From contig CP136063.1 of NCBI GenBank assembly GCA_032622095.1, forward strand, positions 9,837,814 to 9,901,813: 64,000 nt of DNA, given 5' to 3'. The notes under the pieces are model-generated. The model was not told where the DNA came from, did not search any database, and saw only the letters and a list, made by a program, of their open reading frames with translations. This DNA is from Siphonodentalium dalli (Eukaryota; Mollusca; Scaphopoda; Gadilida; Siphonodentaliidae). Shown here in pieces: positions 33,728-63,765 of this stretch (position 1 is the stretch's first letter; each line of letters opens with the position of its first letter). A program made the translations under genes and the position numbers.

Positions 33728-34122
33728 GTGAGCAACACGTAATTGTCATGCAGTCTGTTGTTGAGTCGGATTGTGTTTGTTCGGGTGAGGAATTCAGTCA
33801 AGTGTTCTACTGTTCGTTCAGTAACAGTGTATTTGTCATGGTGAGAAAAACACGTGTAGTCTACTATTCGTTGAATATATGAGTGTATTTGTCAGGTGAG
33901 CATTACATGGTGTACGTTGTTGGTTTTGTCGGTGTGTATTTATCCGGTGAACATTACATGTCGTATATTGTTTGTTTAATAAGAACGTATTTGTCCTGGT
34001 GAGCAATACAATAATGACATTATAATGTAGTGTATTGTTCGTTTAATGAGGGCAGTTGTACGGGCGATACATACATGTAGTATATTGTTCGGTTCATCGG
34101 AGTGTATCTATCGGATCTCTAC
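33728..34122 (+). repeat. Degenerate 50-57-bp repeats, each with a 5' splice-site copy
   Basis: Beginning at the exon 1 donor, GGTGAGC-like sequence recurs at 33785 (GTGAGG), 33841 (GTGAGA), 33896 (GTGAGC), 33947 (GTGAAC) and 33999 (GTGAGC), then decayed at 34064 and 34114. Each is followed by ACATG/ACACG and a GTATATTGTTCG-like stretch and preceded by GTATTTGTC. The spacing of 50-57 bp (65 once) shows tandem origin rather than chance. Confidence 0.8.
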
Positions 34123-34439
34123 CATATGTGCAGTGAAACAACGCATAACACCCATTTTACGAATGGTCGATCGCAAACCAAATTTGACGGCAAACAGTTT
34201 AATAACTTATCGATAACAGAACATCATTATAAAACAGTTACTCTTCCATATAGTTACACCCACGTGTGATTTGGTACCAGACGTATTTCATCGAAAGCTG
34301 TATTGATTGTTCGAGACCTCCAGTCGCAAACAGCAATATACCAAACTCTCATTTAACACCACCATGTCTGCTTCGTTGTTCTTTAAAATTTTCCAAGACG
34401 AACTATAGCATATACACTAAACAAAACCAACATATACAC

Positions 34440-35690
34440 TAAACAAAATCATACCTCTCTTTAATCGAGAGAAGCATTTCCGGACAGGAGTCTTCGATTC
34501 ATATCTAATATTTTCTATCCCGGTAACTATATAATACATGTTTACAAAGAGATAATCCACCTTTAATCGATAGAAGCATTTCCGGACAGGAGTCTTCGAT
34601 TCATATCTAATATTTTCTATCCCGGTAACTATATAATACATGTTTACAAAGAGATAATCCACCTTTAATCGATAGAAGCATTTCCGGACAGGAGTCTTCG
34701 ATTCATATCTAATATTTTCTATCCCGGTAACTATATAATACATGTTTACAAAGAGATAATCCACCTTTAATCGATAGAAGCATTTCCGGACAGGAGACTT
34801 CGATTCATATCTAATATTTTCTATCCCGGTAACTATATAATACATGTTTACAAAGAGATAATCCACCTTTAATCGATAGAAGCATTTCCGGACAGGAGTC
34901 TTCGATTCATATCTAATATTTTCTATCCCGGTAACTATATAATACATGTTTACAAAGAGATAATCCACCTTTAATCGATAGAAGCATTTCCGGACAGGAG
35001 ACTTCGATTCATATCTAATATTTTCTATCCCGGTAACTATATAATACATGTTTACAAAGAGATAATCCACCTTTAATCGATAGAAGCATTTCCGGACAGG
35101 AGTCTTCGATTCATATCTAATATTTTCTATCCCGGTAACTATATAATACATGTTTACAAAGAGATAATCCACCTTTAATCGATAGAAGCATTTCCGGACA
35201 GGAGTCTTCGATTCATATCTAATATTTTCTATCCCGGTAACTATATAATACATGTTTACAAAGAGATAATCCACCTTTAATCGATAGAAGCATTTCCGGA
35301 CAGGAGTCTTCGATTCATATCTAATATTTTCTATCCCGGTAACTATATAATACATGTTTACAAAGAGATAATCCACCTTTAATCGATAGAAGCATTTCCG
35401 GACAGGAGTCTTCGATTCATATCTAATATTTTCTATCCCGGTAACTATATAATACATGTTTACAAAGAGACAATCCACCTTTAATCGATAGAAGCATTTC
35501 CGGACAGGAGTCTTCGATTCATATCTAATATTTTCTATCCCGGTAACTATATAATACATGCTTACACAGAGATAATCCACCTTTATACCCCGGTAACTAT
35601 ATAATACATGTTTACACAGAGATAATCCACCTTTATACCCCGGTAACTATATAATACACGTTTACGAAGAGATAATCCACCTTTAATATT
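34440..35690. repeat. 102-bp satellite array, about 12 copies
   Basis: Near-perfect units of 102 bp containing TCGATAGAAGCATTTCCGGA, CTTCGATTCATATCTAATAT and ATACATGTTTACAAAGAGAT. The last two copies (35587-35690) are shorter, lacking the first half. Because 102 is a multiple of three and the unit lacks stops on the minus strand, there is a 387-codon open frame of 34-residue repeats; I treat it as an artefact of period. Single diverged copies of the unit occur at 32.75-32.88 (inverted), 36.59-36.72 and 46.07-46.19 kb. Confidence 0.95.
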
Positions 35691-37884
35691 GGCTCGGACT
35701 CATTCAGTTGAGTAAAGACTCACGCTTCACATTATTAACGCTTCTTTTTGAACCTGTACGTTTGCGCGTGCTTGTTCGAACGTGATGCACCTTATGCAAT
35801 AATGGTTGCAGCTCATCATTTCCGTTGTGTGGTAGTTGTGGTGCTATTCAAGTTTCCGGGGCATTATATAAGATCGTAAGTCAGTAGTGTTGGTCCCGAA
35901 TAAATTTTGTCCCATGAAAGTCTAGTAATGAGGCCCAATTTAAGAGAGTTACATTTTCCCTATAGCTAACACAAACATAATCCATTAACATATCCTCAAA
36001 ATGTCACAAGAGCCCCACTAAAGCAAATCCTTAATGTTTGTGTTTCTATATATTAAGGAACTCCACAACAAGAAGGGAATTTTAATTCGATAAATCATTA
36101 ACTACATGTAATCACAATATGTGATGAAACGGTATGTACGTTAAATATGATGCCCTTAAACGCATTATCTATTGTAATGAGTGTATATTATGCCATTAAA
36201 CATTCAACTTGTATGGATTGACAACTGCATTAAACAAATACAAGACAAAGCTAAGGTTACACGTTAACGGTCTAAATTCGCACCATGGCCGAGGTCAATA
36301 ATGCTACGAGTAATGTTAATGATATACTAATGATAAAGTTTTTACTTAAAGATTATTAAATAAATCAGCTGACCAGACATTTTGTGGTGTAACTTTGTCA
36401 CAAATTATAGTCATTTTAATTAGACTCATTATCGCTTATAACTATGAAATAAAACAATACAACCAATCAATATGGGACAGTTGACGTTCGGCATGTAGCC
36501 TTATAAACAACATAATGCTCTCTATCGCTATATGGTATCACCCGAATGGTCTGTTCTAAAGATAGACAAATAAACGGACCAATAAAATATTCGAAATAAA
36601 ATCAATAATAATTGATAGAAGCCTTTTCGGACAGGGGTCTTCAGTTCATATCTATTAGTTTATACCCACGCAACTATTTCAAGTTTGTTGTTTAAAGAGA
36701 TAATCCATGTTTAATAGGGATAGTTGCTTTGTGTGACCCACAGATGTGAGTAGAAGGGGGATGCCCTATAGCAGAAGAGTCCACAATTAGAGGTACCATG
36801 TCTTACCCACCAGAAGCTGACATAAGCTAATGATAGGTAGATCACTCTGCTGTATAGGCAGTTTCTGATATAGTCATACAGAATAGGAAAATAAAAGATA
36901 GCAGAAACCCAAAGAACACATACAGATTTTGTGTTATGATTTATGTTTCATATTAAGAATTAATTTAAGCTTCGTATGATCCACGTTATGTGAAAAGAAA
37001 TAATCAATAAAGCGAGGTCCCCTGGTTATTTCTGAAAATTGAGTACCCACGAGTTCCCCGTGTAATAATTGGGTCCAAATAAAAAACAGCCATTTGTATT
37101 TATCGGAATTCCGGAATATGAAATTGAATGTCCATAAAAGGTTTATTGCGTTAGTATCTATTTATTGCGTTAGTATCTTAACACAAAACTATTTCAAATT
37201 TGTTGTTCAAAGAGATAATCCACATTTAAAGAGATAATCCACCTTTAAAGAGATAATCCATGTTTAATAGGGATAGTTGAGCTGATTAATGCTTGTTTCT
37301 TTGTTTCGTGTATATCTAAGATTCACCATAGTCAATACCAATGACGTACAGGAAAGTTCAAATAAAACTGCTGTTTTACGGTTTGAAGGGTTCTGTCAAA
37401 TAACCCCTTATCTTATACACTATATGTTTTGCCTATGTTTCTATTATCAGAGTGGTATATAATATGATCAAATGTCACGCTCTTTCTCCACAGTTCATTT
37501 AAAAGTGATGTTTTTGGTTTTAGCGGGGTCCTGTCCCATTCATGTTTTAATTATACAATTGATGTGTTTGGGTTTAGGCGGATCCCTGGCTCAATCTTGA
37601 CTTGGTATAATTGTAAAGTGATGTTTTTTTTTGGTTTTGGTGTGGCCCTGGCCCCTTTATTGTGTAATTCCGGAACTTATGAAATGGTTTGCTCCACTAA
37701 TCCGGCCTCCCGATAATTCAGACATCAAACCGTTTACACATTAAGCTTAACCTCCTGGGTCCCATGGATATATTAAATTAATGTAACCCGACAATGCAGG
37801 TGTTAAACCATTCCTAATCACGTACATGTTCCTGGTTCACCACATGTTTTACTATTACGTGTAAGTGTTATTATATCTTGACAG
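35691..37884. other. Intron 1 remainder, dispersed repeat fragments only
   Basis: 36360-36730 is a copy of the repeat that carries the 102-bp unit; it shares CAATCAATATGGGACA, CATAATGCTCTCTATCGCTA and TTGATAGAAGC with 45.3-46.2 kb. AAAGAGATAATCCA(C/T) recurs three times at 37209-37264. At 37500-37670 a GGTTTTAG(C/G)(G/C)GG-C-CTG phrase recurs three times about every 60 bp. The intron ends TATATCTTGACAG. Confidence 0.6.
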
Positions 37885-37970
37885 GTTACGCAAGAAGAGA
37901 AACGCTAAACGTGATACAACCCGCAGATGGACCAACAATATAGTACCATATGCGTTCTCTGGATTGTTCA
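37885..37970 (+). CDS. Astacin protease exon 2: activation site and mature N-terminus
   Basis: An 86-bp exon between TTGACAG and GTGAGTATAT. With the split Trp codon it encodes WLRKKRNAKRD then TTRRWTNNIVPYAFSGLF. RKKR and AKRD are dibasic sites of the kind cut to release the propeptide, and RNAxRD...RW....VPY is the typical start of a mature astacin domain. It ends one base into a codon that is completed as Asn by exon 3. No array is present at this donor. Upstream intron 4.2 kb, downstream intron 8.6 kb. Confidence 0.9.
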
Positions 37971-39729
37971 GTGAGTATATGACGCGATTAAATTATCATA
38001 AATATATAGAGGATCTCTGGCGAGTTATATTTGGATATAATATTTTATGAAACGAGTTTGACACATTTGATTCGCAACGAGTCATAGACGAATTGCGAAT
38101 CAAGTTTATCAAACGAGTTTCGTAAACTCTTTTATCCCCACATAACGAGTTGAAGATCGGGTATGTTAGATGAACAAAAACTAGAGCCGTGTGCCCTTTT
38201 AACAAGTCAAAATCGTTAACAGAAGCCGCAAAATACATAAGTGTTGGCTGAGACGCTTCACAACCGTATACGACAGTAGTGCGCGCTCTGGTTAGGAACG
38301 GAATATAAAATATAGTCCCCCAATTTGCCTCCTTGTGTTGTGTCTATTTTCGTTAGTGCAAGGATGTTGGACAAGAATTCTACTAAAATGCAAGAAATGT
38401 CTGTTCTTTGGTGTCTTGCGCGGCTTTTCGGGATAGTATTAATCCGCCTGAATCACTGTAAATTTTGTTGGCGCGATGCCAAGTGATTGCCGGCAAGCAA
38501 GCGCCTATTCACAATATTGACATATAAAGAAATATATAATGATTTTTATTGAGATAATAAGGGTTTCATGTGATAAACTCATTAAAATATAGTAGCATCT
38601 ACAATTCCTCACTACATTGCGGTGTACAATCAACCAGCATAGTAACACAGCAACACAGTAACACAGCACATGTTCCAAAAGATGGAATGGTATATCAACA
38701 TAATCAGATAATATGACCATACGCTAGCGTAATTAACGAACCAAGGCAAAACCACTCACATGAGGGTAGCTGTGGCTTTTTTGTTTTATTTGTTTTTTTT
38801 TATTTATCAAAATCTGTTTATAGATTCCCTGGTATTCCCTTCAAATAAAATTTACATAAGCCTATATTTCCTGGGTTGATTATCAGTAAAAGTAATTAGA
38901 GTAAAATTAGGCAAATCGTACTTTCGCGTAGTCTTGATTTACAGCTAGACTATACATGGTATAAACTACCAACATCAAAGTGAAAATAGTTATACCTTGT
39001 CGAGAGGGGAGCGGGAAATTGTTTAATTAATTCAACCTGTCTATTTATTTTCTTGACGCTGTGTGAGCGCTGGGGCTGAGATACTATATGGAGAAGCGTG
39101 TCCATTTCATAGCTGTTCATTTCATTCGTAAAGTGTCGTGTCGATTTTAACGAAAATCGACGAACAACCTCATCGTGTAACTTTCCGCATTGACCGAGTT
39201 CGCCTGAACCTGTACGAATGTATCTTCTGTTTTGTTCCCAATTATATGTTTTCGTTCGATTCCAGAAAATAGTATGATATTTATGGATTATCACATTCAT
39301 GTATGTAGTCTTATGATAACAATTAATTCCATATTAAATATATATTATTTCGTTTCGCACAGTACCAAGTGATGTACATTAAAGGCCCACTTCGCACAGT
39401 AGAAAGGTAAATTCGTGGTGACATTCTTATTATTTCACATCAGAAATTTAGATCACTTTTCACTCGCCTCGATAGGTGTAGACTGTAGTTACTATGGTGT
39501 CGTTTTGTATTGTGTCATATATCTCAATAAAACTACCGCTACGAATAAACTTTGTAATTCAATATTCATAATTCTCATTTGCAATAACAGTAATCAAAAG
39601 ATACAGTAACAAGATAATTCTATAATTCTATTACAACATTAATGTTTTAAGCCCACCATTCTACTGAGCGACAAAAGTGGTCTAAAATTCAAAACAGCAA
39701 CGTCGTGCTAGATAATAATTGATGATGTC

Positions 39730-40930
39730 ACAACTTGGAATTTTCTGTCTTTATAACTTGGAATTCTGTTTTTTTAACTCGGAATTTATGACTTTATAAC
39801 TCGGAATTTTGACTTTATAACTCGGAATTCTGTCTTTATAACTCGGAATTCTGACTTTATCGACTCGGAATTCTGACTTTATAACTCGGAATTCTGTCTT
39901 TTTAACTCGGAATTCTGTCTTTTTAAATCGGAATTCTGTCTTTTTATCTCGGAATTCTGACTTTATAACTCGGAATTCTGACTTTATAACTCGGAATTCT
40001 GACTTTATCGACTCGGAATTCTGTCTTTTTAAACTCGGAATTCTGTCTTTTTAACTCGGAATTCGGACTTTATAACTCGGAATTCGGACTTTGTAACTCG
40101 GAATTCGGACTTTATCGACTCGGAATTCTGTCTTTATAAACTCGGAATTCTGTCTTTTTAACTTGGAATTCTGTCTTTTTATCTCGGAATTCTGACTTTA
40201 TAAACTCGGAATTCTGTCTTTTTAACTCGGAATTCTGTCTTTATAACTCGGAATTCTGACTTTATAACTCGGAATTCTGACTTTATCGATTCGGAATTCT
40301 GTCTTTATAAACTCGGAATTCTGTCTTTTTATCTCGGAATTCTGACTTTATAAACTCGGAATTCTGTCTTATTAACTCGGAATTCTGTCTTTTTAAACTC
40401 GGAATTCTGTCTTTTTAAACTCGGAATTCTGTCTTTTTAACTCGGAATTCTGACTTTATTAACTCGGAATTCTGACTTTATAACTCGGAATTCTGTCTTT
40501 TTAAACTCGGAATTCTGTCTTTTTAACTCGGAATTCTGTCTTTATAACTCGGAATTCTGTCTTTTTAAACTCGGAATTCTGACTTTATTAACTCGGAATT
40601 CTGTCTTTTTAAACTCAGAATTCTGTCTTTTTAAATCGGAATTCTGACTTTATAAACTCGGAATTCTGTCTTTTTAAATCGGAATTCTGACTTTATCGAC
40701 TCGGAATTCTGTCTTTTTAAACTCGGAATTCTGTCTTTTTAACTCGGAATTCGGACTTTATAACTCGGAATTCGGACTTTATAACTCGGAATTCGGACTT
40801 TATCGACTCGGAATTCTGTCTTTATAAACTCGGAATTCTGTCTTTTTAACTCGGAATTCTGTCTTTTTATCTCGGAATTCTGACTTTATAAACTCGGAAT
40901 TCTGTTTTTTTAACTCGGAATTCTGACTTT
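39730..40930 (+). repeat. 21-22-bp array, ACTCGGAATTCTG(T/A)CTTT type
   Basis: About 55 copies of CTCGGAATTCTGTCTTTTTA with variants GACTTTATAA, GACTTTATCG and CGGACTTT. Every unit contains an EcoRI-like GAATTC. Unit length wobbles between 20 and 23 bp by loss or gain of A/T. Confidence 0.95.
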
Positions 40931-41165
40931 ATAACGAACCAAAGCCGCTTTGGGTCGTATATAGGCTATATCTGATTTTGTGACGTCACCAATTATTAAC
41001 AAATACGACGCTCTAATTTTTGAATTTGGGGAGCACTTTGGCCGCACAGTAGATCGGTGGGCCTAAAGCATTATTGTCGTAATCGGCTGTCAAGAGGCCA
41101 ACACAAATCAGTCGATGTGCAACATTCTCCTATTTATATAAACGTCATGTATGTGTTTTGTTATT
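40931..41165. repeat. Spacer block with inverted copy at 43430-43668
   Basis: Begins AACGAACCAAAGCCGCTTTG and includes GTGACGTCACCAATTATTAA, GTGGGCCTAAAGCATTATTG and GCAACATTCTCCTATTTATA. The same block, reversed, closes the complex at 43668 with GCTTTGGTTCGTTA. It resembles 1575-1613 plus 2085-2200. Confidence 0.8.
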
Positions 41166-42236
41166 TATAAAGTCAGAATACCGAGTTAGAAGACAGAATT
41201 CCAAGTTGATAAAGTCAAAATTCCGAATTATAAAGATAGAATTCCGAGTTTGGAAAGTCAGAATTCCTAGTTTATTAAGTCAGAATTCCGAGTTTAAAAA
41301 GACAGAATTCCGAGTTTAAAAAGTGAAAAATCCGAGTTTAAAAAGTGAAAAATCCGAGTTTAAAAAGACAGAATTCCGAGTTTAAAAAGTCAGAATTCCG
41401 AGTTATAAAGACAGAATTCCGAGTTAAAAAGACAGAATTCCGAGTTTAAAAAAGTGAAAAATCCGAGTTATAAAGACAGAATTCCGTGTTAAAAAGACAG
41501 AATTACGAGTTTAAAAACTAAGAATTCCGAGTTAAAAAGTCAGAATTCCGAGTCGATAAAGTCAGAATTCCGAGTTTATAAAGTAAAAAATCCGAGTTAT
41601 AAAGACAGAATTCCCAGTTATAAAAACAGAATTCCGAGTTTAAAAAGTGAAAAATCCGAGTTATAAAGACATAATTCCGAGTTAAAAAGACATAATTCCG
41701 AGTTTAAAAATTCAGAATTCCGAGTTAAAAAGACAGAATTCCGAGTTTAAAAAGTTCAAAATCCGAGTTATAAAGACAGAATTCCGAGTTCTAAAGTCAG
41801 AATTCCGAGTTTAAAAAGTCAGAATTCCGAGTTTAAAAAGTCAGAATTCCGAGTTAAAAAGACAGAATTCCGAGTTAAAAAGACAGAATTCCGAGTCGAT
41901 AAAGTCAGAATTCCGAGTTAAAAAGACAGATAAAAAGTCAGAATTCCGAGTTAAAAAGTCAGAATTCCGAGTTTAAAAAGTCAGAATTCCGAGTTTAAAA
42001 AGTGAGAATTCCGAGTTAAAAAAAAAGAATTCCGAGTTTAAAAAGTGAAAAATCCGAGTTAAAAAGTCAGAATTCCGAGTCGATAAAGTCAGAATTCCGA
42101 GTTAAAAAGTCAGAATTCCGAGTTAAAAAGACAGAATTCCGAGTTAAAAAGACAGAATTCCGAGTTTATAAAGTCAGAATTCCGAGTTTATAAAGACAGA
42201 ATTCCGAGTTATAAAGACAGAAAATTCCAAGTTGTG
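41166..42236 (-). repeat. Same 21-22-bp array, reverse orientation
   Basis: Units such as AAAGACAGAATTCCGAGTTA, the reverse complement of the array at 39730-40930, with extra variants AAGTGAAAAATCCGAGTT not seen in the first half. Private variants show the two halves have evolved separately since inversion. Confidence 0.95.
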
Positions 42237-43243
42237 ACGTCATCAATTATTATCTAGTACGACGTTGCTGTTTTGAATTTTAGACCACTTTTGTCGCACA
42301 GTAGAATGGTGGGCTTAAAGCATTAATGTCGTAATAGAAATATCTTGTTGCTGTGTCTTTTGATTACTGGTATTGCAAATGAGAATTATGAATATTGAAT
42401 TACAAAGTTCATTCGTAGCGGTAGTTTACATTTTATTGAGAAATAAGACACAATAAATAACGACACTATAGTAACTACAGTTTACACCTATCGGGGCGAG
42501 TGAAAAGTGATAAGAATGTCACCACGAATTTACCTTTCTACTGTGCGAAGTGGGCCTTTAATGTACATCACTTGGTACTGTGCGAAACGAAATAATATAT
42601 ATTTAATATGGAATTAATTGTTATAATAAGACTACATACATGAATGTGATAATCCATAAATATCATACTATTTTCTGGAATCGAAAGAAAACATATAATT
42701 GTGAACAAAGCAGAAGATACATTCGTGCAGGTTCAGGCGAACTCGTTCAATGCGGAAAGTTACACGATGAGGTTGTTCGTGTCGACGTCGTGTCGATTTT
42801 AACGAAAATCGACACGACACTTTACGAATGAAATGAACAGCTATGAAATGGACACGCTTCTCCATATAGTGTCTCAGCCCCAGCGCTCACACAGCGTCAA
42901 GAAAATAAATAGACAGGTTGAATTAATTAAACAATTTCCCGCTCCCCTCTCGACAAGGTATAACTATTTTCACTTTGATGTTGGTAGTTTATACCATGTA
43001 TAGTCTAGCTGTCAATCAAGACTACGCGGAAGTACGATTCGCCTAATTTTACTCTAATTACTTTTACTGATAATTAACCAAGGAAATATAGGCTTATGTA
43101 AATTTTATTTGAAGGGAATACCAGGGAATCTATAAACAGATTATGATAAATAAAAAACAAACAAATAAAAAAAAAGCTACAGCTACCCTCAAGTGAGTGG
43201 TTTTGCCTTGGTTCGTTAATTACGCTAGCGTATGGTCATATTA

Positions 43244-43670
43244 ACTCGGAATTCTGACTTTATAACTCGGAATTCTGACTTTATCGACTCGGAATTCTGA
43301 CTTTATAAACTAGGAATTGTGACTTTCCAAACTCGGAATTTTATTTTTATAATTCGGAATTTTGACTTTATCAACTTGGAATTCTGTCTTCTAACTCGGA
43401 ATTCTGACATTTATTAACCCGGCATTCTGACAAAACACATACATGATTGTATGCTTATATAAATAGGAGAATGTTGCACATCGACTGATTTGTGTTGGCC
43501 TCTTGACAGCCGATTACGACAATAATGCTTTAGGCCCACCGATCTACTGTGCGACAAAAGTGCTCCCCAAATTCAAATATTAGAGCGTCGTATTTGTTAA
43601 TAATTGGTGACGTCACAAAATCAGATATAGCCTATATACGACCCAAAGCGGCTTTGGTTCGTTATGAATT
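43244..43670. repeat. Short third array plus inverted spacer block
   Basis: Immediately after the palindrome end, about nine units of the array (forward orientation, more diverged) run to 43435, followed by the reverse complement of 40931-41165. This block would complete a second element of the same family, so the complex is a chain: arm, array, spacer, reversed array, reversed arm, array, reversed spacer. Confidence 0.8.
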
Positions 43671-45376: not shown

Positions 45377-45378
45377 TA

Positions 45379-45840
45379 TGTGACCCGCCATATCAAATCC
45401 AGTCGTAAGTCGGGATTTTGTTTACCCTGTGCCAATGCATTCTCTTATATATATGCGAGTCGACCATAGGTCGCCTCGCATTTTAGATAATGCATTGGCC
45501 TAACAATTTTTTATCTTTTTTTTAAAATAAATGTTTCTTACAATTTTTAGGACATAAAATTAAAAAAACATCAATTACCCTGCAGGGAGCCCCACACATA
45601 TATAGAAGCATATGGAAGAGTGTCGTCTGCTCATGTTTGTCTGGGGCTCTGTATGGGTGAAATTATAAAATTGTTAAAGAATACAAGAAAACATTATTAA
45701 AATTGTAAAAAATTGTTAGGCCAATGCATTCTCTTATATATGCGAAGCGACCTATGGTCGATTCGCATATATAAAAGAATGCATTGGCACAGGGTAAAAT
45801 AAATCCCGACTTACGACTGGATTTGATATGGCGGGTCACA
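45379..45840. mobile_element. 462-bp MITE, TSD TA, inside an older repeat
   Basis: Same family as 26699-27159: TGTGACCCGCC ends, TA on both sides, two hairpin cassettes (about 45427-45500 and 45718-45790), GAGCCCCACACATATATAG centre. The left hairpin has lost part of one stem. The flanking repeat (CGATACCGTATAGCGATA / TAGTGTATTATG) exists without the MITE near 36520-36545 (inverted), supporting insertion. Confidence 0.85.
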
Positions 45841-45842
45841 TA

Positions 45843-46571
45843 TAGTGTATTATGTTTTTCCTATAGCAGCGTACCGAACGTCAAATGTCCCAGATTGATT
45901 GAATGTATTGTTTTATTCCGTAGTTATGAGCGATAATGAGTCTAGTTAACGTTTATTTGTGACAAATTGCACAATAAAAGGTCGGCCTCTGTTGACAATA
46001 ACCATAGTAACCACTATTGCTCGTTAGCTAAACAATCACACATATTTAGACCAGAAAATATTCAAAATAAAATCAATATTAATTGATATAAGCATTTCCG
46101 AACAGGAGTCTTCGATTCAAATCTAACATATGTATACCTCGGTAACTATATAGCACATGTTTACAAAGAGATAATCGACCTTTAATCGAGTGCATGTACA
46201 CGTGGTTGTCGGCTGCGGCGACCGATATGTGACCAACTGATGTAATTATCATAAAAAACGATGTCATGTGACACATCATTCAGTTATCCATATAGATAGT
46301 TATCATAATGATAGTTATACATATATTTGAAAATGTGTTAGTCTTTAGTCAGAGCATTATCATTGAGTTTGGCGCTTTGTCTATGCATATTCTCACTCTG
46401 TCGTCGTAAAAAGGACGCCCAGAGGATGCGTCTATCAATGTCATTACGATATTGAACTGTTGAAGATCTAGTTTGCACAACTTTCCTCAATAAATTAGTA
46501 TGCACCATTCATAGATTAATTAATGGTTAAACTTTATTTCAAGTTCGTCCGTGTTTTCTTACCTTACGTAG
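45843..46571. other. Intron 2 end with a single copy of the 102-bp unit
   Basis: 46070-46195 is a diverged single copy of the 102-bp array unit (AAGCATTTCCGAACAGGAGT, TTTACAAAGAGATAATCGAC). The intron ends GTGTTTTCTTACCTTACGTAG, a good pyrimidine tract and acceptor. Confidence 0.6.
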
Positions 46572-46689
46572 ACAAGAAGGACCGTGCAGTAATAGATGAG
46601 GCATTCGCGGCGTGGAAGTCTGTCACATGTATCAAATTTATTCCAAGGACAAGCGAAGCAAACTACATCAACTTCATAAGGGGTCTCGG
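46572..46689 (+). CDS. Astacin protease exon 3: N-terminal catalytic half
   Basis: A 118-bp exon. The acceptor at 46571 is the one that keeps phase with exon 2; an AG at 46543 does not. It encodes KKDRAVIDEAFAAWKSV then TCIKFIPRTSEANYINF and IRGL, ending two bases into a Gly codon. The pattern I..A...W...TCI.F.PR....YI.F..G is characteristic of astacin domains, and the Cys is the first of the conserved disulfide cysteines. The donor GG/GTGAGT is followed directly by about 75 tandem copies of a 26-bp unit containing the donor. Confidence 0.92.
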
Positions 46690-48655
46690 GTGAGTTAATT
46701 CATACGACTTCAAAAGGAGTACGGGGTGAGTTAATTCATAAGGAGTACGGGGTGAGTTAATTCATAAGGAGTACGGGGTGAGTTAATTCATACGACTAAA
46801 GGGATACGGGGTGAGTTAATTCATAAGGAGTACGGGGTGAGTTAATTCATACGACATAAGGAGTACGGGGTGAGTTAATTCATTCGACATAAGGAGTACG
46901 GGGTGAGTTAATTCATACGACTTAAGGAGTACGGGGTGAGTTAATTCATACGACTTAAGGAGTACGGGGTGAGTTAATTCATACGACTTAAGGAGTACGG
47001 GGTGAGTTAATTCATAAGGTGTACGGGGTGAGTTAATTCATAAGGTGTACGGGATGAGTTAATTCATAAGGAGTACGGGGTGAGTTAATTCATAAGGTGT
47101 ACGGGGTGAGTTAATTCATAAGGAGTACGGGGTGAGTTAATTCATAAGGAGTACGGGGTGAGTTAATTCATAAGGAGTACGGGGTGAGTTAATTCATAAG
47201 GAGTACAGGGTGAGTTAATTCATAAGGAGTACGGGGTGAGTTAATTCATAAGGAGTACGGGGTGAGTTAATTCATAAGGAGTACGGGGTGAGTTAATTCA
47301 TAAGGAGTACGGGGTGAGTTAATTCATAAGGAGTACGGGATGAGTCAATTCATAAGGTGTACGGGGTGAGTTAATTCATAAGGAGTACGGGGTGAGTTAA
47401 TTCATAAGGAGTACGGGGTGAGTTAATTCATAAGGAGTACGGGGTGAGTTAATTCATAAGGAGTACGGGGTGAGTTAATTCATAAGGAGTACGGGGTGAG
47501 TTAATTCATACGACTAAAGGGATACGGGGTGAGTTAATTCATAAGGAGTACGGGGTGAGTTAATTCATACGACTTAAGGAGTACGGGGTGAGTTAATTCA
47601 TACGACTTAAGGAGTACGGGGTGAGTTAATTCATACGACTTAAGGAGTACGGGGTGAGTTAATTCATAAGGTGTACGGGGTGAGTTAATTCATAAGGTGT
47701 ACGGGGTGAGTTAATTCATAAGGAGTACGGGGTGAGTTAATTCATAAGGTGTACGGGGTGAGTTAATTCATAAGGAGTACGGGGTGAGTTAATTCATAAG
47801 GAGTACGGGGTGAGTTAATTCATAAGGAGTACGGGGTGAGTTAATTCATAAGGAGTACAGGGTGAGTTAATCCATAAGGAGTACGGGGTGAGTTAATTCA
47901 TAAGGAGTACGGGGTGAGTTAATTCACAAGGAGTACGGGGTGAGTTAATTCATAAGGAGTACGGGGTGAGTTAATTCATAAGGAGTACGGGGTGAGTTAA
48001 TTCATAAGGTGTACGGGGTGAGTTAATTCATAAGGAGTACGGGGTGAGTTAATTCATAAGGAGTACGGGGTGAGTTAATTCATAAGGAGTACGGGGTGAG
48101 TTAATTCATAAGGAGTACGGGGTGAGTTAATTCATAAGGAGTACAGGGTGAGTTAATTCATAAGGAGTACGGGGTGAGTTAATTCATAAGGAGTACGGGG
48201 TGAGTTAATTCATAAGGTGTACGGGGTGAGTTAATTCATAAGGAGTACGGGGTGAGTTAATTCATAAGGAGTACGGGGTGAGTTAATTCATAAGGAGTAC
48301 GGGGTGAGTTAATTCATAAGGAGTACAGGGTGAGTTAATTCATAAGGAATACGGGGTGAGTTAATTCATAAGGAGTACAGGGTGAGTTAATTCATAAGGA
48401 GTACGGGGTGAGTTAATTCATAAGGAGTACGGGGTGAGTTAATTCATAAGGTGTACGGGGTGAGTTAATTCATAAGGAGTACGGGGTGAGTTAATTCATA
48501 AGGAGTACGGGGTGAGTTAATTCATAAGGAGTACGGGGTGAGTTAATTCATAAGGAGTACAGGGTGAGTTAATTCATAAGTAGTACGGGGTGAGTTAATT
48601 CATAAGGAGTACAGGGTGAGTTAATTCATAAGGAGTACGGGGTGAGTTAATTCAT
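46690..48655 (+). repeat. 26-bp minisatellite, about 75 copies of a 5' splice site
   Basis: Units AAGGAGTACGGGGTGAGTTA plus ATTCAT repeat almost perfectly, with variants ATACGACTT(A)AGG, GGTGTACGG and AGTACAGGG. The exon 3 end and intron start (CTCGGGTGAGTTAATTCATA) align with the unit, so the array grew from the exon-intron junction. The longer units with ATACGACTTAAGG lie near the left end, in the middle and at the far right end. Confidence 0.95.
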
Positions 48656-48715: not shown

Positions 48716-49321
48716 ACTAAGTGTCACATAATTATTGGTCCTTACAAGCAACTGTCCTCTTGTGAAACGGGCCAGTAATAGTGAACTATATCAATATATG
48801 TGACCCGCCATATCAAATCCAGTCGTAAGTCGGGATTGTTTTTACCCTGTGCTAATGCATTCTCTTATATATGCGAGTCGACCATCGCATATATAAGAGA
48901 ATGCATTGGCCTAACAATGTTTTACAATTTTAATAAAAAAAAATTGTATTCTTTAACAATTTTATAATTTCACCCATACAGAGCCCCAGACAAACATGAG
49001 CAGACGACACTCTTCTATATGTTTCTATATATGTGTGGGGCTCGCTGCAGGGTAATGGATGTTTTTTATTTTATGTCCTAAAAACATTTATTAAAAAAAA
49101 TAATAAAAAATTGTTGGGCCAATGCATTCTCTTATATATGCGAGGCGACCTATGGTCGACTCGCATATATAAGAGAATGCATTGGCACAGGGTAAAAACA
49201 ATACCGACTTACGACTGGATTTGATATGGCGGGTCACATATATTGATATAGTTCACTATTACTGGCCCGTTTCACAAGAGGACAGTTGCTTGTAAGGACC
49301 AATAATTATATGACACTTATG
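48716..49321. repeat. Large inverted repeat centred on a MITE
   Basis: About 80 bp on each side (48716-48796 and 49241-49321) are inverted copies: CAAGCAACTGTCCTCTTGTG and GGGCCAGTAATAGTGAACTA on the left pair with the same words reversed on the right. The MITE at 48799-49238 lies exactly at the centre, making a 606-bp nested palindrome. Confidence 0.85.
48799..49238. mobile_element. 440-bp MITE, TSD TA, reverse centre
   Basis: Same family as 26699-27159, with the GAGCCCC...GGGGCTC centre in the opposite orientation. The left hairpin has lost most of its loop (GCGAGTCGACCATCGC), the right one is complete. Confidence 0.85.
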
Positions 49322-52283: not shown

Positions 52284-52288
52284 ATCGT

Positions 52289-55924: not shown

Positions 55925-56265
55925 CCTGACATTCATAATGATATGTGTTATTACCTCTGGATTATTCACCACTGAATAAATTGGTAAAAACCTGTACCAA
56001 TACATTGGCCTAACAAATTATATTTTAGTTTTTTTATAATTGTAAACAAATGTAAAAATTATAAAAAATGACAAAACAATTATAAAAAATGACAAAACAA
56101 ATTATAAAAAGTGACAACCAATTTGTTTTGTCTTTTTTTGTGTGTAAATTTAACATTTTTTAACAATTATAAAAGACTAATATATAATTTGTTAGGCCAT
56201 TGCATTCTCTTATATATGTGAGGCCACCTATGGTCGACTCGCATATATAAGAGAATGCATTGGCA
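55925..56265 (+). repeat. Second copy of the duplicated intron segment
   Basis: Matches 51850-52202, including a MITE whose left hairpin has collapsed to CCAATACATTGG. Both copies share this collapse, so it predates the duplication. The copy is cut at 56265 by the following insertion and resumes at about 57772. Confidence 0.85.
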
Positions 56266-57771
56266 CATCTCATTCTCATTCTCGCTTCCGGCCATTCAAT
56301 GGGAAGGCTCGCCAGCGCTCCGCGCTAATCCCTTGAGTGGTTCGTGACTTTTTTGTCAAACTTGGTTTTGAATTAGGCTTATATAGCTTATACCCAGCCA
56401 TGTTTGCAACGCTTTGGGAGGCTTCCACTCGGCTTATTGTGTGCGTTGGATTATCCATGTACATAATGGTCAGGTGGATGTGGCTTTGGAATACAGCGTT
56501 GCACCCTCTACCAGCAGCGGCTCGGAGAAGACCAACACCACAGTTGGAGGGGCTTCACAGACAAAGAAGGGAAAGAAGAAGAGTCCGGGACACCGTCGCA
56601 TGGACGCCGAAAGAAAGGCCAGGTGGATTAAGAGGAAGGATGAGAGACGCACAGCAACCTCCCACTTGGTCCTGTCTGTGCAGCACCCTGGGCAGGACCC
56701 ACTCCCGAATGCCGCATCCACTGATGTACCACCTCAGAGGCCGACTGAGACCACATAGACAGCCTCTGCGGTTGATGCGGGGGGCGACTGTAACACCACC
56801 TTCACGGCAGGATCCGACTGATGTCACCCCAGCGGCTCCTGCGATGGAACAGTTCAACTTCGAGATGGGGTTGGATTCTCCACCACAGAGGGATGACTCA
56901 TTCACAGTCCCGGAGACGCCGAAGTATGAGCCGGTGTATCCACACAGGGATAGTGAACCACCTGACAACGAAGATCTGTTCAACACACTCACAGAAAACC
57001 TTAGATGCCGGGTACTCGCTGCTGCTGAAAAACATTAAAAATGCACATTCACCAAAACAGACAGCGAATTGGTGTGTAATGACATCATCTACACTGCAGC
57101 AGACGCTGATGACCCGGCTGACCTGGAATACAGGATAGTGGATCAGGATATCCAGTATCGGAAAAAGTCCAACACCAGCAGCATGAGCAACACCTCTCAC
57201 CTTCACCTCTCACCTCTCACTCGGATGCACCACCACCGGCGAAGAGGACCAAGATGAAAAAGAACAAAAAAAGATGAAGATCTAAAATTGTTTCACATGA
57301 CTTTTCCGTGACTTTTGTGAGCCGATATCACAACAAATATTGAATTAATTACCAAGGAGAAATTCGATAATTGTCAGCAACGCAAAGCAAAATTGCTCAC
57401 AAAGTCACTTAAATCGTGTAATTTCGAGTTGAGTCACCTACACTGACGTATATTGTTACGGAACAGGTAATAGCTAAGAAACATATTCCCTGCATTATTT
57501 GTTTGATAAAGTTATAAGTTTCCCTGTCAAAACTTCAAAAAGTTCCCAGCTCTCCCTCTCCCTCGGATGCTTCTTCGTCTGCACCACCACCGGCGAAGAG
57601 GACCAAGATGAAAAAAAGAACAAAAAAAGATGAAGATATAAAATTGTTTTTTTTCTTCTTTTTTTGTGTTGTTTGTTAATAAAGGCATATAACATGACCC
57701 CTCATGAGGGAGTAGACCTTTCGGTCTATTCGACCATCCCGGTGTTAGCCCCCCCCAACACTCCCTTAGAG
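56266..57771 (+). mobile_element. 1.5-kb insertion with broken basic-protein ORF
   Basis: Comparison with the first duplicate (GGCACAGGGTGTGTGCATTA at 52192) shows that everything from TCTCATTCTCATTCTCGC to CTCCCTTAGAGG was added. It is more GC-rich than its surroundings. Near the right end are an AATAAA (57679), a CCCCTCATGAGGGG-like palindrome and a GTAGACCTTTCGGTCTAT hairpin. A block of about 65 bp (CACCACCACCGGCGAAGAGG, AAAAGATGAAGAT) occurs twice, at 57222 and 57575. I cannot place it in a named superfamily; an old retroelement or captured viral-type gene are both possible. Confidence 0.7.
56414..57038 (+). pseudogene. Frameshifted gag-like or ORF1-like basic protein
   Basis: The first frame (56414-56758) reads WIIHVHNGQVDVALEYSVAP, a Ser/Thr-rich linker, then KKGKKKSPGHRRMDAERKAR and WIKRKDERR. 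The reading then continues best in another frame (about 56790-57038) with PPSRQDPTDVTPAAPAMEQF, an acidic Pro-rich tail with VPETPKYEPVYPHRDSEPP, and a stop at 57038. A third frame (57069-57257) gives DDPADLEYRIVDQDIQYRKK. Basic SPxxRRxDxxR stretches of this sort occur in many unannotated invertebrate repeat proteins; I know no biochemical function for them. Frame changes make it likely non-functional. Confidence 0.5.
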
Positions 57772-57848
57772 GTTGTGTGCATTATTCACATTGACATATA
57801 TCAACTAACCTGCTCAGCCACATTGACATTTTAGTGTTCATTGTGCAG

Positions 57849-57918
57849 GTGCTGGTCATATGTTGGGATGATCCAAGGGATAATACAGAATTTGTCTCTG
57901 GACTACCATTGCGTATAT
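57849..57918 (+). CDS. Astacin protease exon 4: GCxSxVG segment
   Basis: A 70-bp exon between GTTCATTGTGCAG and GTAAGTACA. It completes the Gly codon of exon 3 and encodes GCWSYVGMIQGIIQ then NLSLDYHCVY, ending in phase 0. This is the astacin GCxSxVGRxGGxQxxSL...C segment that lies just before the zinc site; both disulfide cysteines are present. The usual Arg and Gly pair (VGRxGG) is replaced by VGMIQG, an unusual change. The sequence before it is duplicated at 52204-52283. Without this small exon the reading frame from exon 3 to exon 5 would not connect. Confidence 0.9.
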
Positions 57919-58890
57919 GTAAGTACAATGATTGTATCGTCTTGTTCACAAAGTGTCTCACATCATACTGAAGCGTCACAATATCACAACGTATATTGTG
58001 ACATTTGATTGATAATCGAATAATGTGATGATATACAATATGATTTAATGTGTGCATATGTATAATGCGACCTGCCATACACACCATCTAGAAGTTAGAC
58101 TGGATAATGCGTTAGACGATTACAACCTACGCCGCGGTTGTCCTGTTTGACCAGCGAGTATAATGTATGTGGCTGGCTTCTTGATTGACCGAAGATTATA
58201 ACAATATTCATAATATGTCATTACTAATTCCGCCAAGGCAAAATGCTATTTGTTCTTACAGTTGTGTAGCAATAAACCATCTGATTAAGATTGTAGACAC
58301 ATAATATTATATTACAATGTGACATCATGGGTATGTCAACAATGTAGGTAGATGTGATGGTCCAGTGGTGTACATGATTTCTATGACTTTACTTACATCG
58401 TGAAGCAATGAGAAATTCCAGTGCAAAATTATAACATCGCATGGTGAATATTCATGCAGCATGGACTATCTCCGATTTCCCAAGTCACAATGGTTTATAT
58501 CACCATTGGAATGCATCTCTGCAACTCATTTACGTACAAGGCAGCAAACTGTATTTGTACTAATTGTGTTGGAATGTTGTTGATGTCAGAAGTCAGGGGA
58601 ATGCAATAAAATGATACGTAGTTATGTAATAAGACGTTCCAACGTACCAAATATATAAATATTATATTATATGGTTACAAATGCACAAACATATCTAAGG
58701 TTAAAAATAGATAGATATTCCGTCTAAGAAATATAGAGGTTAGATTCCGTGCGCTCAGGAATGTTACTGGTAGATGGTTTACTATATATCACTACTCCTT
58801 CCATCATTTTCAAAAAATTACACCCGGCCGAAGTATACATTGTTGGCAGTGGAGAGAGATAGTGGATGGAAATTGGTAATTTATTATGGC
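57919..58890. other. Intron 4 first part, no gene seen
   Basis: AT-rich, unique-looking sequence with no repeat array at the exon 4 donor. Short open frames have no features of proteins. Confidence 0.4.
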
Positions 58891-58899
58891 TATCATTCG

Positions 58900-59300
58900 G
58901 TTAACCCTTTACTCAACAAAACGGCTAAAACCGGCCAAATAAAGCTTCAACAGCCTAAAATATCTTCGGTCTGTCTCAATAAAACCATACAAATATGGAT
59001 ATCATTGGAACCGGCTCATTGACCACATTGTGATGTTACAGTTATGCCCTGTGCCAATGCATTCTCTTATATATGCGAGTTGACCATAGGTCGCCTCGCA
59101 TATATAAGAGAATGCATTGGCCTAAAACAAATCTTTTTTAACACTTTTTACCATTTTTTCTTACATTCTTTAACAATTTTATAATTTTTAATGTGTTAAG
59201 CCAATGCATTCTCTTATATGTGCGAGGCGACCTATGGTCGACTCGCATATATAAGATAATGCATTGGCACAGGGCCGTTCTGTTGGGTTAAATTACTGTA
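58900..59300. mobile_element. MITE with paired hairpins, first of an inverted pair
   Basis: GGTTAACCCTTTACTCAACA and AAACCGGCCAAATAAAGCTT lead to two hairpin cassettes (59045-59125 and 59205-59272) separated by about 75 bp, then CCGTTCTGTTGGGTTAAAT. The whole unit is the reverse complement of about 61765-62165. Outer sequence differs from the TGTGACCC family though the hairpins are the same. Confidence 0.8.
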
Positions 59301-61680
59301 AATGTCTCACCCATCTGAGTATCATGTCATGCTTTTATATACATGGATTGACGAAGAAGGCAAACTATAACGTAAGTCAACACCTAAAAGGTAACAATAA
59401 CTGAAATATGATATATAAATATGGTATGGAATATGAATATTGTGAACAATAATGACATATACGAATGGTATGAGAAATGAACTTTGATAAAGCATATCGA
59501 GTAATGTCTTGTAACTATTGGCTCGCCAATGGCTCGTGCAATACACTGTCGCCTTAAGAAATTTTACGTTTTGCGTGCAACGACGTATAAACACTTAATT
59601 CCGTTGATCATGCGGAAATTAAAAAGGTATGTACATATACTGGGCAAATGTGTCTGATATAGGCTAAACATGCTATTTTATCGAGTTTCCGTGTGGAGAG
59701 CATGCCTCTACGGAAAGTAGTGCCCAACTTAACGTTTGGATCGTTATTCTGTTCACAACTGGATTTGCTATATTATCCGATGTTGGCTTCAAATGGACTC
59801 TGAATTAAACCGAGAATAATAAATTAACATTGCAAATTTTCGCAAGACTAGATCGTGTTGTGCGTATACCCTACGTTCGGTTATGTCCCATTTGTGTCGT
59901 AATATTCGTCTCACACAAACGTGTTACAGGGCTACGCATCTCGTTTAAGATTTTAAGTCTGCATGTAAACTTTGGCGTCTCATATATTTATAACGTCTTT
60001 GTTTCCGTCTTATTCGCATCGTCTATATAGATACACTGCATGATATCCACGGTTAATTATAATTAATATGCTAATAAATATGCTAATGAATATGGCGAAA
60101 ACCTGGTTGGAGATGCGACATGAAATATCAGGTATGCCCCATGTGACTTATTTGACCAATCAAATAAATAATACCGGAAAATATCCGACGAAGGCAGCTT
60201 GCTGATATTTTATCGCCAGTTGGTGATATGTGTTCACCTTGATTGGTGGCCATCGGTATCCGTTAACCAATCTCTATAAGGGACACGATGGTAACCGTGC
60301 ACGCACTCCAGTTATGATCCATCAATATTATCGCCCGTTTCAACAATTGACTTCCTAATTCCATTTTGGATTGTTTGACATAATCGCTGAGCTATTATAT
60401 TGATATGTGTGTGGACATATATATATTTTGAGGGTTTCCGCTGACGGAGGATGTCCATGCATTTCCAACTGCACCCCCTCTTGAATCGGGCCAAAGACCC
60501 AATATCACATAATTGAATTTGCACACCTCCCATCGTCTTTGAATTTCCCCTATGGTACCTCACATACCTTGAATTTTGACTGGACACCGTGGAGGGAGGG
60601 GCCTAGAAGAAATTCCAAACCAATAATTTGACCATAGTAGGAAAAATGCAAATGTTGGTCTAAAACCACGAATTCCACATACATTAATGGTTGAAAATCA
60701 GACTACAAGAACAATTTCAAACCATTGTTGGTGTGAAATTTCCAACTAATATTGTTTCCAAGTTGGCGGGGGTTTCATGTCCCCACATGCGCCCATGTAA
60801 GTTCGGTAACGTAATGTACAGCACAGCCCCATGCACCAAGCAACAATCTCGTGAAAACTTCATATGGGGTCTCAATGGGGGTGGGGTCATCCGATTTGCC
60901 ACAAAACCATAATAACATTTGTCACCCCACATATACATGCACTATGAAATTATAACATTTCCAAATTTCCAAATAACGTGACCACTTTCACATTATGCAG
61001 ACGGTCTTTATGCATGAGATCAGCAACGTTACTAATCCCACCCAACTTCGGTAATACATGTCAACAGTTGGAAATTTCAAAAAGCTATGAATTGCCAAAA
61101 TGGACTATAGGTTATTTATCGGACGCAATTCACTTGAACCAGCATGACTAATACTGTTCTGATTGAGCTCAATCAACGCCGTCTAAACCGCCGCGTTCTC
61201 ACGGGCGTAATCTTTGCAGCAAGAAAATATCAGTGTGCAATTGTACCTGATATTTTCTTGCAGATATTTTCTTGCAGCTTCATGTGTACGCGCCCTTATT
61301 GAAACGTATCGATGGCGGCATTTCAGAAATTGTGTTTTTATCGTGCCAATCGATATAAGTTCCGCGGTGTTAGCATTGTTGTCAGAAAAGGAGTACATGT
61401 CTGTAATATTTGAGCTGTAATTGTCATCTGTTGGTGCAGAATTTACATCAGGATTTTCGTTATCGGAAGCATTTGGGCTATTTGGTTCAGCAGAAATTGA
61501 AATTACATCATGTGGGTTGTAATTTTATTATTCTGCTTCCGAACATTTATTTAGATTTTTTCCAGCTGCCCGCAAACGCTCGCCCACTTATGCGAGGTGT
61601 ATTGTTTATCATTCGTCTTCTGCATTTATTCTTCGGACTCGTTGTAAACGTCTTATTTTTTTAACTTTTAGGTTAACCCT
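59301..61680. other. Intron 4 middle, no gene assigned
   Basis: Mostly unique AT-rich sequence. 60120-60310 has three CCAAT/ATTGG boxes and a CTATAAG, promoter-like in composition but followed by no gene. 60570-60930 is somewhat GC-richer with no recognisable protein. Confidence 0.4.
61216..61277. repeat. Short hairpin with extra half-repeat
   Basis: GCAAGAAAATATCAG pairs with CTGATATTTTCTTGC across 13 bp, and the right stem is immediately repeated as AGATATTTTCTTGCAG. Confidence 0.75.
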
Positions 61681-61682
61681 TA

Positions 61683-62165
61683 AGGTGCCCCTCACAGACA
61701 CAAGCAGACGACATTCAGTAATAGATCCTTCTATCTGTGTGGGGCTCTCTATGGGAGTTAACCATATTAACCATTTACCCAACAGAAGGGCCCTGTGCCA
61801 ATGCATTCTCTTATATATGCGAGTCGACCATAGGTCGCCTCGCATATATAAGAGAATGCATTGGCTTAACACATTAAAAATTATAAAATTGTTAAAGAAT
61901 GTAAGAAAAAATGGTAAAAAGTGTTTAAAAAAGATTTGTTTTAGGCCAATGCATTCTCTTATATATGCGAGGCGACCTATGGTCGACTCGCATATATAAG
62001 AGAATGCATTGGCACAGGGCATAACTGTAACCATCACAATGTGGCCAAGGAGCCGGTTCCAATGATATCCATATTTGTATGGTTCTATTGAGACAGACCG
62101 AAGATATTTTAGGCTGTTGAAGCTTTATTTGGCCGGTTTTGGCCGGTTTGTTGGGTAAAGGGTTA
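61683..62165. mobile_element. MITE with paired hairpins, second of an inverted pair
   Basis: Contains GCAGACGACATTCAGTAATA and GTGTGGGGCTCTCTATGGG (the same core as the left-edge satellite), then GGGCCCTGTGCCAATGCATT, two hairpin cassettes (61793-61866 and 61945-62018), and the reverse complement of 58905-59045 (AAGATATTTTAGGCTGTTGA, CTTTATTTGGCCGG). Confidence 0.8.
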
Positions 62166-62360
62166 ATCTCTTTCGGAGTCGGGAGTTGTTGAGCTATCCG
62201 AATAGTTGTGAACCTATTAACTTTTACTTTTAGGTTAATCTGTTTCGGATTCGGGAGTTTTTGACCTATCCGAATCGTTGTGAACGTATTAACTGTAATG
62301 TTTATGTTCATCTGTTTCGGAGTCGGGAGTTGTTGAGCTATCTGAATCTTTGAGGCATAA
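62162..62360. repeat. Three tandem repeats of about 72 bp
   Basis: GGTTAATCT(C/G)TTTCGGA with GTCGGGAGTTGTTGAGCTAT and CCGAAT-GTTGTGAAC recur at about 62162, 62233 and 62307. They lie about 80 bp before the zinc-site exon acceptor. Confidence 0.85.
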
Positions 62361-62439
62361 ACATATAATTTCCCAATCAATTTTAACGGGTGACGCTCTT
62401 GGGTATTACCACCATTTTAAGATTCCTCTCCTTTTATAG

Positions 62440-62643
62440 AAAGATGTTGTCGTGCATGAATTGGGCCACGTTCTTGGGTTGTACCACGAACACTCTCGTC
62501 CCGATCGAGACGGGTTCATCAGAGTCAATTTACAGAACGTCATACCAGGAGAACAACACAACTTTGTGAAAAAAGACGATTTGGATGTAAGCAGCTTCGG
62601 GACAGCATATGACTACTACAGCATGATGCACTTTGGGCGACGT
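62440..62643 (+). CDS. Astacin protease exon 5: zinc site and Met-turn
   Basis: A 204-bp exon, phase 0 to phase 0, between CTCTCCTTTTATAG and GTGAGTATC. It encodes KDVVVHELGHVLGLYHEHSR and continues PDRDGFIRVNLQNVIPG, EQHNFVKKDDLDVSSFGT, AYDYYSMMHFGRR. HELGHVLGLYHEHSRPDRD is the full astacin signature: three His bind zinc, the first Glu is the general base. The Met-turn is normally SxMHY, the Tyr acting as a switchable zinc ligand and transition-state stabiliser; this exon has SMMHF, so the Tyr is Phe. The last 42 bases of the exon and its donor are the unit of the tandem array that follows. The remainder of the catalytic C-terminal half lies beyond the window. Confidence 0.95.
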
Positions 62644-63765
62644 GTGAGTATCACCCTAGTTATCGTATACAGCATATGACTACTATATCGTGATGCACTA
62701 CGGGCGGCGTGTGTGTATCACCCTAGTTATCGTATACAGCATATGACTACTACAGCGTGATGCACTACGGGCGGGGTGTGAGTATCACCCTAGTTACTAC
62801 GGGCGACGTGTGAGTATCACCCTAGTTATCGTATACAGCATATGACTACTATATCGTGATGCACTACGGGCGGCGGTTGTGTATCACCCTAGTTATCGTA
62901 TACAGCATATGACTACTACAGCATGATGCACTTTGGGCGACGTGTGAGTATCACCCTAGTTATCGTATACAGCATATGACTACTATATCGTGATGCACTA
63001 CGGGCGGCGTGTGAGTATCACCCTAGTTACTACGGGCGACGTGTGAGTATCACCCTAGTTATCGTATACAGCATATGACTACTATATCGTGATGCACTAC
63101 GGGCGGCGGTTGTGTATCACCCTAGTTATCGTATACAGCATATGACTACTACAGCATGATGCACTTTGGGCGACGTGTGAGTATCACCCTAGTTATCGTA
63201 TACAGCATATGACTACTATATCGTGATGCACTACGGGCGGCGTGTGTGTATCACCCTAGTTATCGTGTACAGCATATGACTAATACAACGTGATGCACTA
63301 CGGGCGGCGTGTGAGTATCACCCTAGTTACTACGGGCGACGTGTGAGTATCACCCTAGTTAACGTATACAGCATATGACTACTATATCGTGATGCACTAC
63401 GGGCGGCGGTTGTGTATCACCCTAGTTATCGTATACAGCATATGACTACTACAGCATGATGCACTTTGGGCGGCGTGTGATTATCACCCTAGTTATCGTA
63501 TACATAATATGACTACTATATCGTGATGCACTACGGGCGGCGTGTGTGTATCACCCTAGTTATCGTGTACAGCATATGAATACTACAGCGTGATGCCCTA
63601 CGGGCGGCGTGTGAGTATCACCCTAGTTACTACGGGCGGCGTGTGAGTATCACCCTAGTTACTACGGGCGGCGTGTGAGTATCACCCTAGTTATCGTATA
63701 CAGCATATGACTACTACAGCGTGATGCACTACGGGCGGCGTGTCAGTATCACCCTAGTTATCGTA
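62602..63765 (+). repeat. 67-bp array of exon 5 end plus splice donor
   Basis: The first unit is the exon itself from ACAGCATATGACTACTACAG onward, through the donor GTGAGTATCACCCTAGTTAT. About 20 full or half units follow. Half units (CTACGGGCGACGTGTGAGTA then TCACCCTAGTTA, about 32 bp) are interspersed, giving a higher-order pattern of about 230-300 bp. Many units encode MHYGRR, some MHFGRR. Reading past the first donor meets a stop within the next unit. Confidence 0.95.

Follow-up and report, generated by a model that had tools for sequence, protein, structure and literature searches.

Minisatellite arrays that begin on 5' splice sites in an astacin-type gene and in other genes of Siphonodentalium dalli

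Why should several introns of a single gene each open with a minisatellite that contains the gene's own 5' splice site? The question arises in a stretch of 64,000 nucleotides ("the window", G000:C3:9837814-9901813) from the 2.23-Gb, nine-contig assembly of the scaphopod Siphonodentalium dalli. The plus strand of the window carries an astacin-type metalloprotease gene, in which five exons were placed and whose joined translation is open. Tandem arrays begin at the 5' splice sites (donors) of exons 1, 3 and 5, the GT dinucleotides of which lie at 33728, 46690 and 62644, as a first-pass annotation of the window had correctly placed them. That annotation proposed that a process linked to splicing or transcription draws duplication to donors. 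The account favoured here, with moderate confidence, is that the arrays arise by tandem duplication that goes on as a background process in a minisatellite-rich genome and is better tolerated at donors than at acceptors. Units spanning the junction, recurrence in many genes, more donor than acceptor arrays in a sample of exons, and no excess over shifted intron positions are all observed; the donor arrays are probably explained by their slight effect on the protein and not by an attraction of duplications to donors.

The anatomy of the arrays (coordinates in Table 1) points to their origin. The first unit of array 2 begins 12 bp inside exon 3 and spans the exon end and the donor. The full unit of array 3 comprises the last 42 bp of exon 5, coding sequence included, followed by the donor and the intron start. 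Because their units hold exon sequence too, arrays 2 and 3 are taken to have begun as a duplication across the exon-intron edge. Both clearly have the form of donor-spanning variable number tandem repeats (VNTRs), in which the first unit holds the exon's own 5' splice site, and array 1 has it in degenerate form. The arrays run into the intron, and the exon is single-copy upstream of one unit. Array 1 is old and degenerate: Tandem Repeats Finder (TRF) makes no call on it, no copy of the exon tail is seen in it, and its units are pairwise 58-79% identical, all 21 pairs scoring above all 50 shuffles. By eye the three units appear mutually unrelated, and the donors of exons 2 and 4 carry no array (tile scores 16 and 14, the exon 4 tile being placed one base early); both statements had been made from the first reading of the sequence.

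The first donors are probably those that the gene uses. The joined exons match the Pfam Astacin profile PF01400 at 9.5e-48 (positions 1-145 of 189) and include the catalytic-domain motif HExxHxxGxxHExxRxDRD. Residues 46-192 of the joined protein, from exons 2-5, align with BMP1 in the PDB at 9.7e-38 with a lone one-residue gap near the exon 3/4 junction. Since exons 2-5 joined by their first donors align with BMP1, it is splicing at the first of the array 2 donors that gives the conserved protein. The donor of array 3 sits where paralogs end the matching exon, and that of array 1 is backed by the open frame. Exon 1 falls outside the part of the protein aligned to Pfam and BMP1. It is probably not the first exon of the gene, as its label had implied: an acceptor-like CAG site precedes it, and further exons may sit upstream.

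The coding end of exon 5 has itself been involved in the history of array 3. The canonical astacin Met-turn SxMHY is not found in the window exon, which reads SMMHF. The matched exon of 42 astacin paralog loci reads xMHY, with F in none (two more xMH matches, the MHE of the zinc motif, were set aside). In astacins the Met-turn tyrosine is a zinc-side residue. This M..F coding variant (window 62602-62643; CATGATGCACTTT) recurs in three intronic units spaced 233-300 bp apart, so the coding end took part in block duplication or conversion more than once.

How such arrays could arise and persist may be described in a few steps. Tandem duplication across the 3' edge of an exon would be the origin of arrays 2 and 3 and of similar ones. 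The exon-proximal edge would stay with its donor copy, splicing at this first donor would still yield the right mRNA, and the later copies, coding tail included, would become plain intron. With its first donor copy still functional, such a duplication would be nearly neutral and could expand on the intron side through slippage or unequal exchange. Use of later donors is another matter: read-through from exon 3 stops at once (GGG TGA) and that from exon 5 within the first unit, and these in-frame stops in the first intronic stretch imply that later donors would add stops or shift the frame, damaging the protein. A duplication at an acceptor would set complete extra acceptors before the right one and should be tolerated less often, which may be the cause of an acceptor deficit. 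In a minisatellite-rich genome, this difference in tolerance would leave arrays on donors with about the frequency seen in the intron around them, and on acceptors with a lower one.

Within the window, the placement of three arrays on five donors had been judged unlikely by chance, a judgement that was not confirmed. TRF arrays make up 27% of the intron bases of this gene (20% without array 2), and under a random coverage model at least three of five donors are covered with P = 0.13, or 0.06 without array 2. Among 3,000 random 60-bp tiles at 33.8-61.8 kb, 26% have a direct copy downstream. With minisatellites occupying 20-27% of the gene's introns, the argument from the window was dropped as evidence.

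The comparison of donors with acceptors and shifted positions, which the first-pass annotation had suggested for all introns, was made on 159 exons with both flanks, taken from five Pfam families searched in the genome: 59 of 61 other astacin matches (one apparently intronless and one overlapping match being left out), 40 of 93 P450, 20 of 85 myosin, 20 of 123 kinesin and 20 of 150 trypsin matches. The exons were hand-chosen and non-random (mostly stop-free rows at distinct places), with many paralogs and a few neighbouring exons of one gene, and their edges were judged by eye. Loci are designated by L numbers, and contigs by C numbers.

Exon edges recurring in the adjacent 400 bp of intron with a score of at least 36 (shuffle maxima, for the first 100 loci, 38 at donors and 29 at acceptors) were found at 16/159 donor flanks, namely 12/59 in astacins, 2/20 in myosins, 2/20 in kinesins, 0/40 in P450s and 0/20 in trypsins. 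Acceptor flanks gave 3/159 (L171, with L133 and L157 marginal at 37), and inverted copies were found at one donor and no acceptor. The exon start of L157 is uncertain; the donor of L036, scoring just 36, is confirmed by TRF. TRF arrays cross the junction at 13/159 donors (about eight families) and 2/159 acceptors (L157, L171). The 60-bp exon-tail test overlooks arrays with a diverged exon copy, such as array 2 (score 19) and that of L030, a paralog ~93 kb downstream whose donor carries a 32-bp array corresponding to the half unit of array 3. A tile from -20 to +40 was therefore used, with a direct copy sought in the next 220 bp. Donor tiles were repeated in 14/159 exons and acceptor tiles in 1/159 (Fisher P = 0.0008 by locus).

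Set against shifted positions, the same tiles tell a different story. Shifts of 60, 120 and 140 bp into the same introns gave 13, 25 and 27 matches in 159, of which 11, 10 and 11 share a locus with a donor match, leaving 2, 15 and 16. There is no donor excess over shifted tiles in the introns of these 159 exons, and the suggested comparison is borne out for donors over acceptors but not for donors over shifted positions. On the acceptor side, shifted tiles gave 5, 6 and 7 matches.

Donor-spanning arrays are not confined to the window gene: they were found in other astacins, myosins, kinesins, CAD, an insulin-degrading-enzyme-like peptidase, an MFS transporter, and NIDO and ShK proteins. Five astacin paralogs (L012, L013, L018, L026, L029) have a common 91-93-bp donor-spanning array of at least seven similar units. 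In two myosin paralogs of G000:C4 (L043, L045), a two-copy duplication of ~67 bp lies over the myosin-head donor and may show an array of this kind at its earliest stage.

The alternative that donors are a true hot spot of duplication, through nascent RNA, U1 binding, R-loops or slowing of the polymerase at the 5' splice sites of germline-expressed genes, appears unlikely, the shifted tiles being repeated as often as the donor tiles. It draws on several observations nevertheless. TRF-spanning donors number 9/59 in astacins and 0/40 in P450s, which would suit gene-specific expression. By locus, one array edge lies in the first 60 intron bases and 13 in the last 120 exon bases. By family, about 8 array 5' edges fall in the last 120 exon bases and about 23 in the 360 intron bases that follow, and the exon-end counts form an excess solely under a short-unit assumption (P = 0.01 to 0.15).

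Arrays picked across the genome by a repeated splice-site motif bear on the same alternative. Three copies of the donor 9-mer CAGGTGAGT at 19-49 bp spacing were matched 764 times, and three of the reversed motif 175 times. Among the matches listed (100; C1, C2 and C3 to 229 Mb), in which families were counted by eye, there are 16 arrays of CAGGTGAGT in ~14 families, and 9 arrays of its reversal in ~4 families over that stretch (11 arrays on all of C1-C3). The second donor motif, AAGGTAAGT, gave ~14 families against ~5 reversed on C1-C5 among the matches listed, or ~28 against ~9 for the two motifs together, although its raw matches fall below those of its reversal (126 against 240). In nine of the 16 CAGGTGAGT arrays a coding exon ends at the first donor (Table 1), among them that of CAD, an essential-type gene; for L101, L103, L108, L111, L114 and L116 the coding edge is not settled. 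The remaining one, L110 (G000:C2:216920065-216921565), was rejected as a donor array: it is the beginning of a TRPM-like exon that holds 45-bp copies in tandem and in frame, the boundary CAG|GTGAGT of which mimics a donor. By eye, the six reversed-motif arrays fetched show no coding edge, and stretches from five of them have no Pfam match; L193, and largely L192, are all array. These six exclude a dispersed 20-bp family and two arrays with GGTGAGT in their units (C3:145461164, C4:157530112). Single CAGGTGAGT counts nearly equal those of the reversal (11,860 and 10,234) and the 9-mer stands at 1/159 sampled donors, so the exon-end share of these arrays looks above random placement.

The acceptor motif TTTTTACAG gave 238 matches and its reversal 323, and it falls below the donor motif in excess over the reversed motif. 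Fourteen loci were fetched of the 15 arrays listed, the other (C7:185611423) being like that at C7:184108458. Raw counts of tandem motif matches were dropped as a measure, single big arrays dominating them (AAGGTAAGT, TTTTTACAG, and TTTACAG with 9,649 against 9,047). The motif patterns do not catch every array either: the triple-motif list lacks a CAGGTGAGT cluster at C1:8.88 Mb.

Several of these results weigh against the view that donors are covered by tolerated background duplication. At the family level the difference between donors and acceptors is 8 to 2, with P = 0.11, and acceptors do not fall significantly below their own shifted controls (1 against 5 or 6/159; P = 0.21 and 0.12). Units of at least 45 bp, a class chosen post hoc, looked concentrated at donors (7 against 3 families). 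The surplus of CAGGTGAGT families over the reversal and the 9/16 share on coding exon ends belong here as well; this share hints at a real donor excess, at odds with the tile test, or arrays may just be denser in the neighbourhood of exons. Moreover, acceptor-spanning arrays exist (L171, L181, L183/L184, L188), and arrays picked by the acceptor motif adjoin a coding exon at 4-5/14 loci, which is not clearly a smaller share than with the donor motif. The surplus of CAGGTGAGT families would be compatible with the R-loop or U1 idea.

A second alternative, that the exon edge is a template kept intact by selection, from which anchored arrays are renewed through exchange while free intron arrays decay, is improbable. 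The recurrence of the exon 5 variant among the intronic units of array 3 fits it, but it predicts acceptor arrays as common as donor arrays, and TRF saw 2 and 13. It is very hard to credit that the arrays are functional, for instance as repeated U1 sites that guard against premature polyadenylation or adjust the splicing of long introns. GTGAGT is intact in 71/73 units of array 2; the remainder of that array is near-uniform too (1.5 changes per column over 73 units, against 0.33 in the hexamer), so this sameness says little. In array 3 the hexamer is intact in 12/20 units and is the more variable part (1.83 against 0.73 changes per column), and in array 1 GTGAGC is intact in 3/7. The difference between arrays 2 and 3 indicates no steady constraint on later donors. 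Plain coincidence, in which minisatellites that occupy between a fifth and a quarter of the gene's intron sequence overlap some donors by chance, fits the window probabilities and is just as implausible, by itself leaving donors over acceptors in the 159 exons unexplained.

Table 1. Exons and arrays of the window gene, with motif arrays elsewhere that adjoin coding exons
Feature	Position	Strand	Description
Exon 1 (first-pass label)	33628-33727	+	Ends ..NNPW, phase 2; frame open into exon 2
Array 1	33727 to ~34117	+	7 degenerate units, 51-64 bp, GGTGAG-like start; the first is the exon 1 donor
Exon 2	37886-37970	+	Donor TTCA|GTGAGT (37971), array-free
Exon 3	46572-46689	+	Start of astacin domain; donor CTCGG|GTGAGT
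Array 2	46678-48655	+	73 units, 26/33-bp spacing (one of 36); TRF and unit scan; tile score 74
Exon 4	57849-57918	+	CWSYVG..; donor TAT|GTAAGT (57919), array-free
Exon 5	62440-62643	+	HExxHxxGxxHExxRxDRD and Met-turn SMMHF; donor CGT|GTGAGT; Pfam Astacin match
Array 3	62602-63765	+	20 units, 67/32-bp spacing, 233/300-bp higher-order period; TRF and unit scan; tile score 120
Array 3 intronic units with ACTTT variant	62930, 63163, 63463 (within 62930-63494)	+	Match the coding end of exon 5 at 62630
L112, CAGGTGAGT array			CAD 4.7e-16, match reaching the residue just before the donor
L113, CAGGTGAGT array			MFS 2.8e-13
L106/L107, CAGGTGAGT arrays			NIDO 2.4e-7
L109, CAGGTGAGT array			Peptidase_M16 7.2e-7; insulin-degrading enzyme 7e-6
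L104, CAGGTGAGT array			ShK 1.4e-4
L105, CAGGTGAGT array			Sister locus of L104
L115, CAGGTGAGT array			fn3 0.13; open frame only
L102, CAGGTGAGT array			Open frame only
L181, TTTTTACAG array			Coding exon after last acceptor; tissue alpha-L-fucosidase 2.2e-9
L188, TTTTTACAG array			Coding exon after last acceptor; CBM_14 1.1e-6
L183/L184, perhaps L178, TTTTTACAG arrays			Coding exon after last acceptor; open frame

Other repeats are present in and around the gene. Two large arrays (39743-40935 and 41165-42222) have about the same 21-bp unit (TTCTGTCTTTATAACTCGGAA and its near-complement) in opposite orientation, with more near 43239-43431. A palindrome-like element around CCAATGCATTCTCTTATATATGCGAG is repeated, by eye, at ~45400-45850, 48800-49240, 59050-59300 and 61750-62100. 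Upstream of exon 1, the minus strand at 30122-32240 holds reverse-transcriptase-like open stretches (YADDTVLF) of an element resembling a long interspersed nuclear element (LINE).

Repeat units that carry donor sites are known from the human IFI6 (6-16) minisatellite. The human ABCA7 intron 18 VNTR, as described in PMC5954066, has 25-bp units, alleles of up to 10.7 kb and a history of disease studies. Its first two bases are the GT of the canonical exon 18 donor, and use of a donor one unit further in retains one out-of-frame unit. Like the window arrays, it starts at the donor and extends into the intron; it is a single human gene, whereas three unrelated arrays in one gene and further arrays in many genes are found here, in one assembly. 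PMC2630376 describes the human CBS 31-bp VNTR c.1444_1467+7, a single locus of 16-21 copies, the unit of which by its coordinates covers the exon end plus seven bases of intron, much like the units of arrays 2 and 3. It also covers CBS 844ins68, a tandem copy of an exon-intron junction with which the mRNA can stay normal, a likeness to the arrays seen here. Intron gain by tandem genomic duplication of AGGT is treated as established in the review PMC3443670, and likewise hands out extra splice-site copies. Such a duplication creates a new intron inside an exon; in contrast, the donor position of exon 5 is common to array-free paralogs (e.g., L017, L027, L028), and it is therefore an existing intron that has grown at its 5' end, not a new one.

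The open-licence literature searched yielded single-gene cases and intron gain, and no genome-wide survey of donor-spanning minisatellites was found in it. Within that literature, the arrays belong to the known ABCA7/CBS type, and their number in one genome and the difference between donors and acceptors are new.

For genome annotation, the consequence is that donors of this kind may be put in the wrong place by gene predictors and short reads. A tentative and somewhat doubtful extension is that growth at the 5' end is the main route by which introns lengthen in this genome, through a ratchet of donor duplication. Real donors would perhaps also be duplicated more often via germ-line transcription or splicing, and thousands of introns, those of housekeeping genes included, would carry stacked, near-identical 5' splice sites. 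ABCA7 and CBS are single human cases known for their medical effects; a genome with such arrays in gene after gene is a natural testing ground for how the spliceosome picks one of several identical donors, which duplications selection lets pass, and whether introns lengthen from one end.

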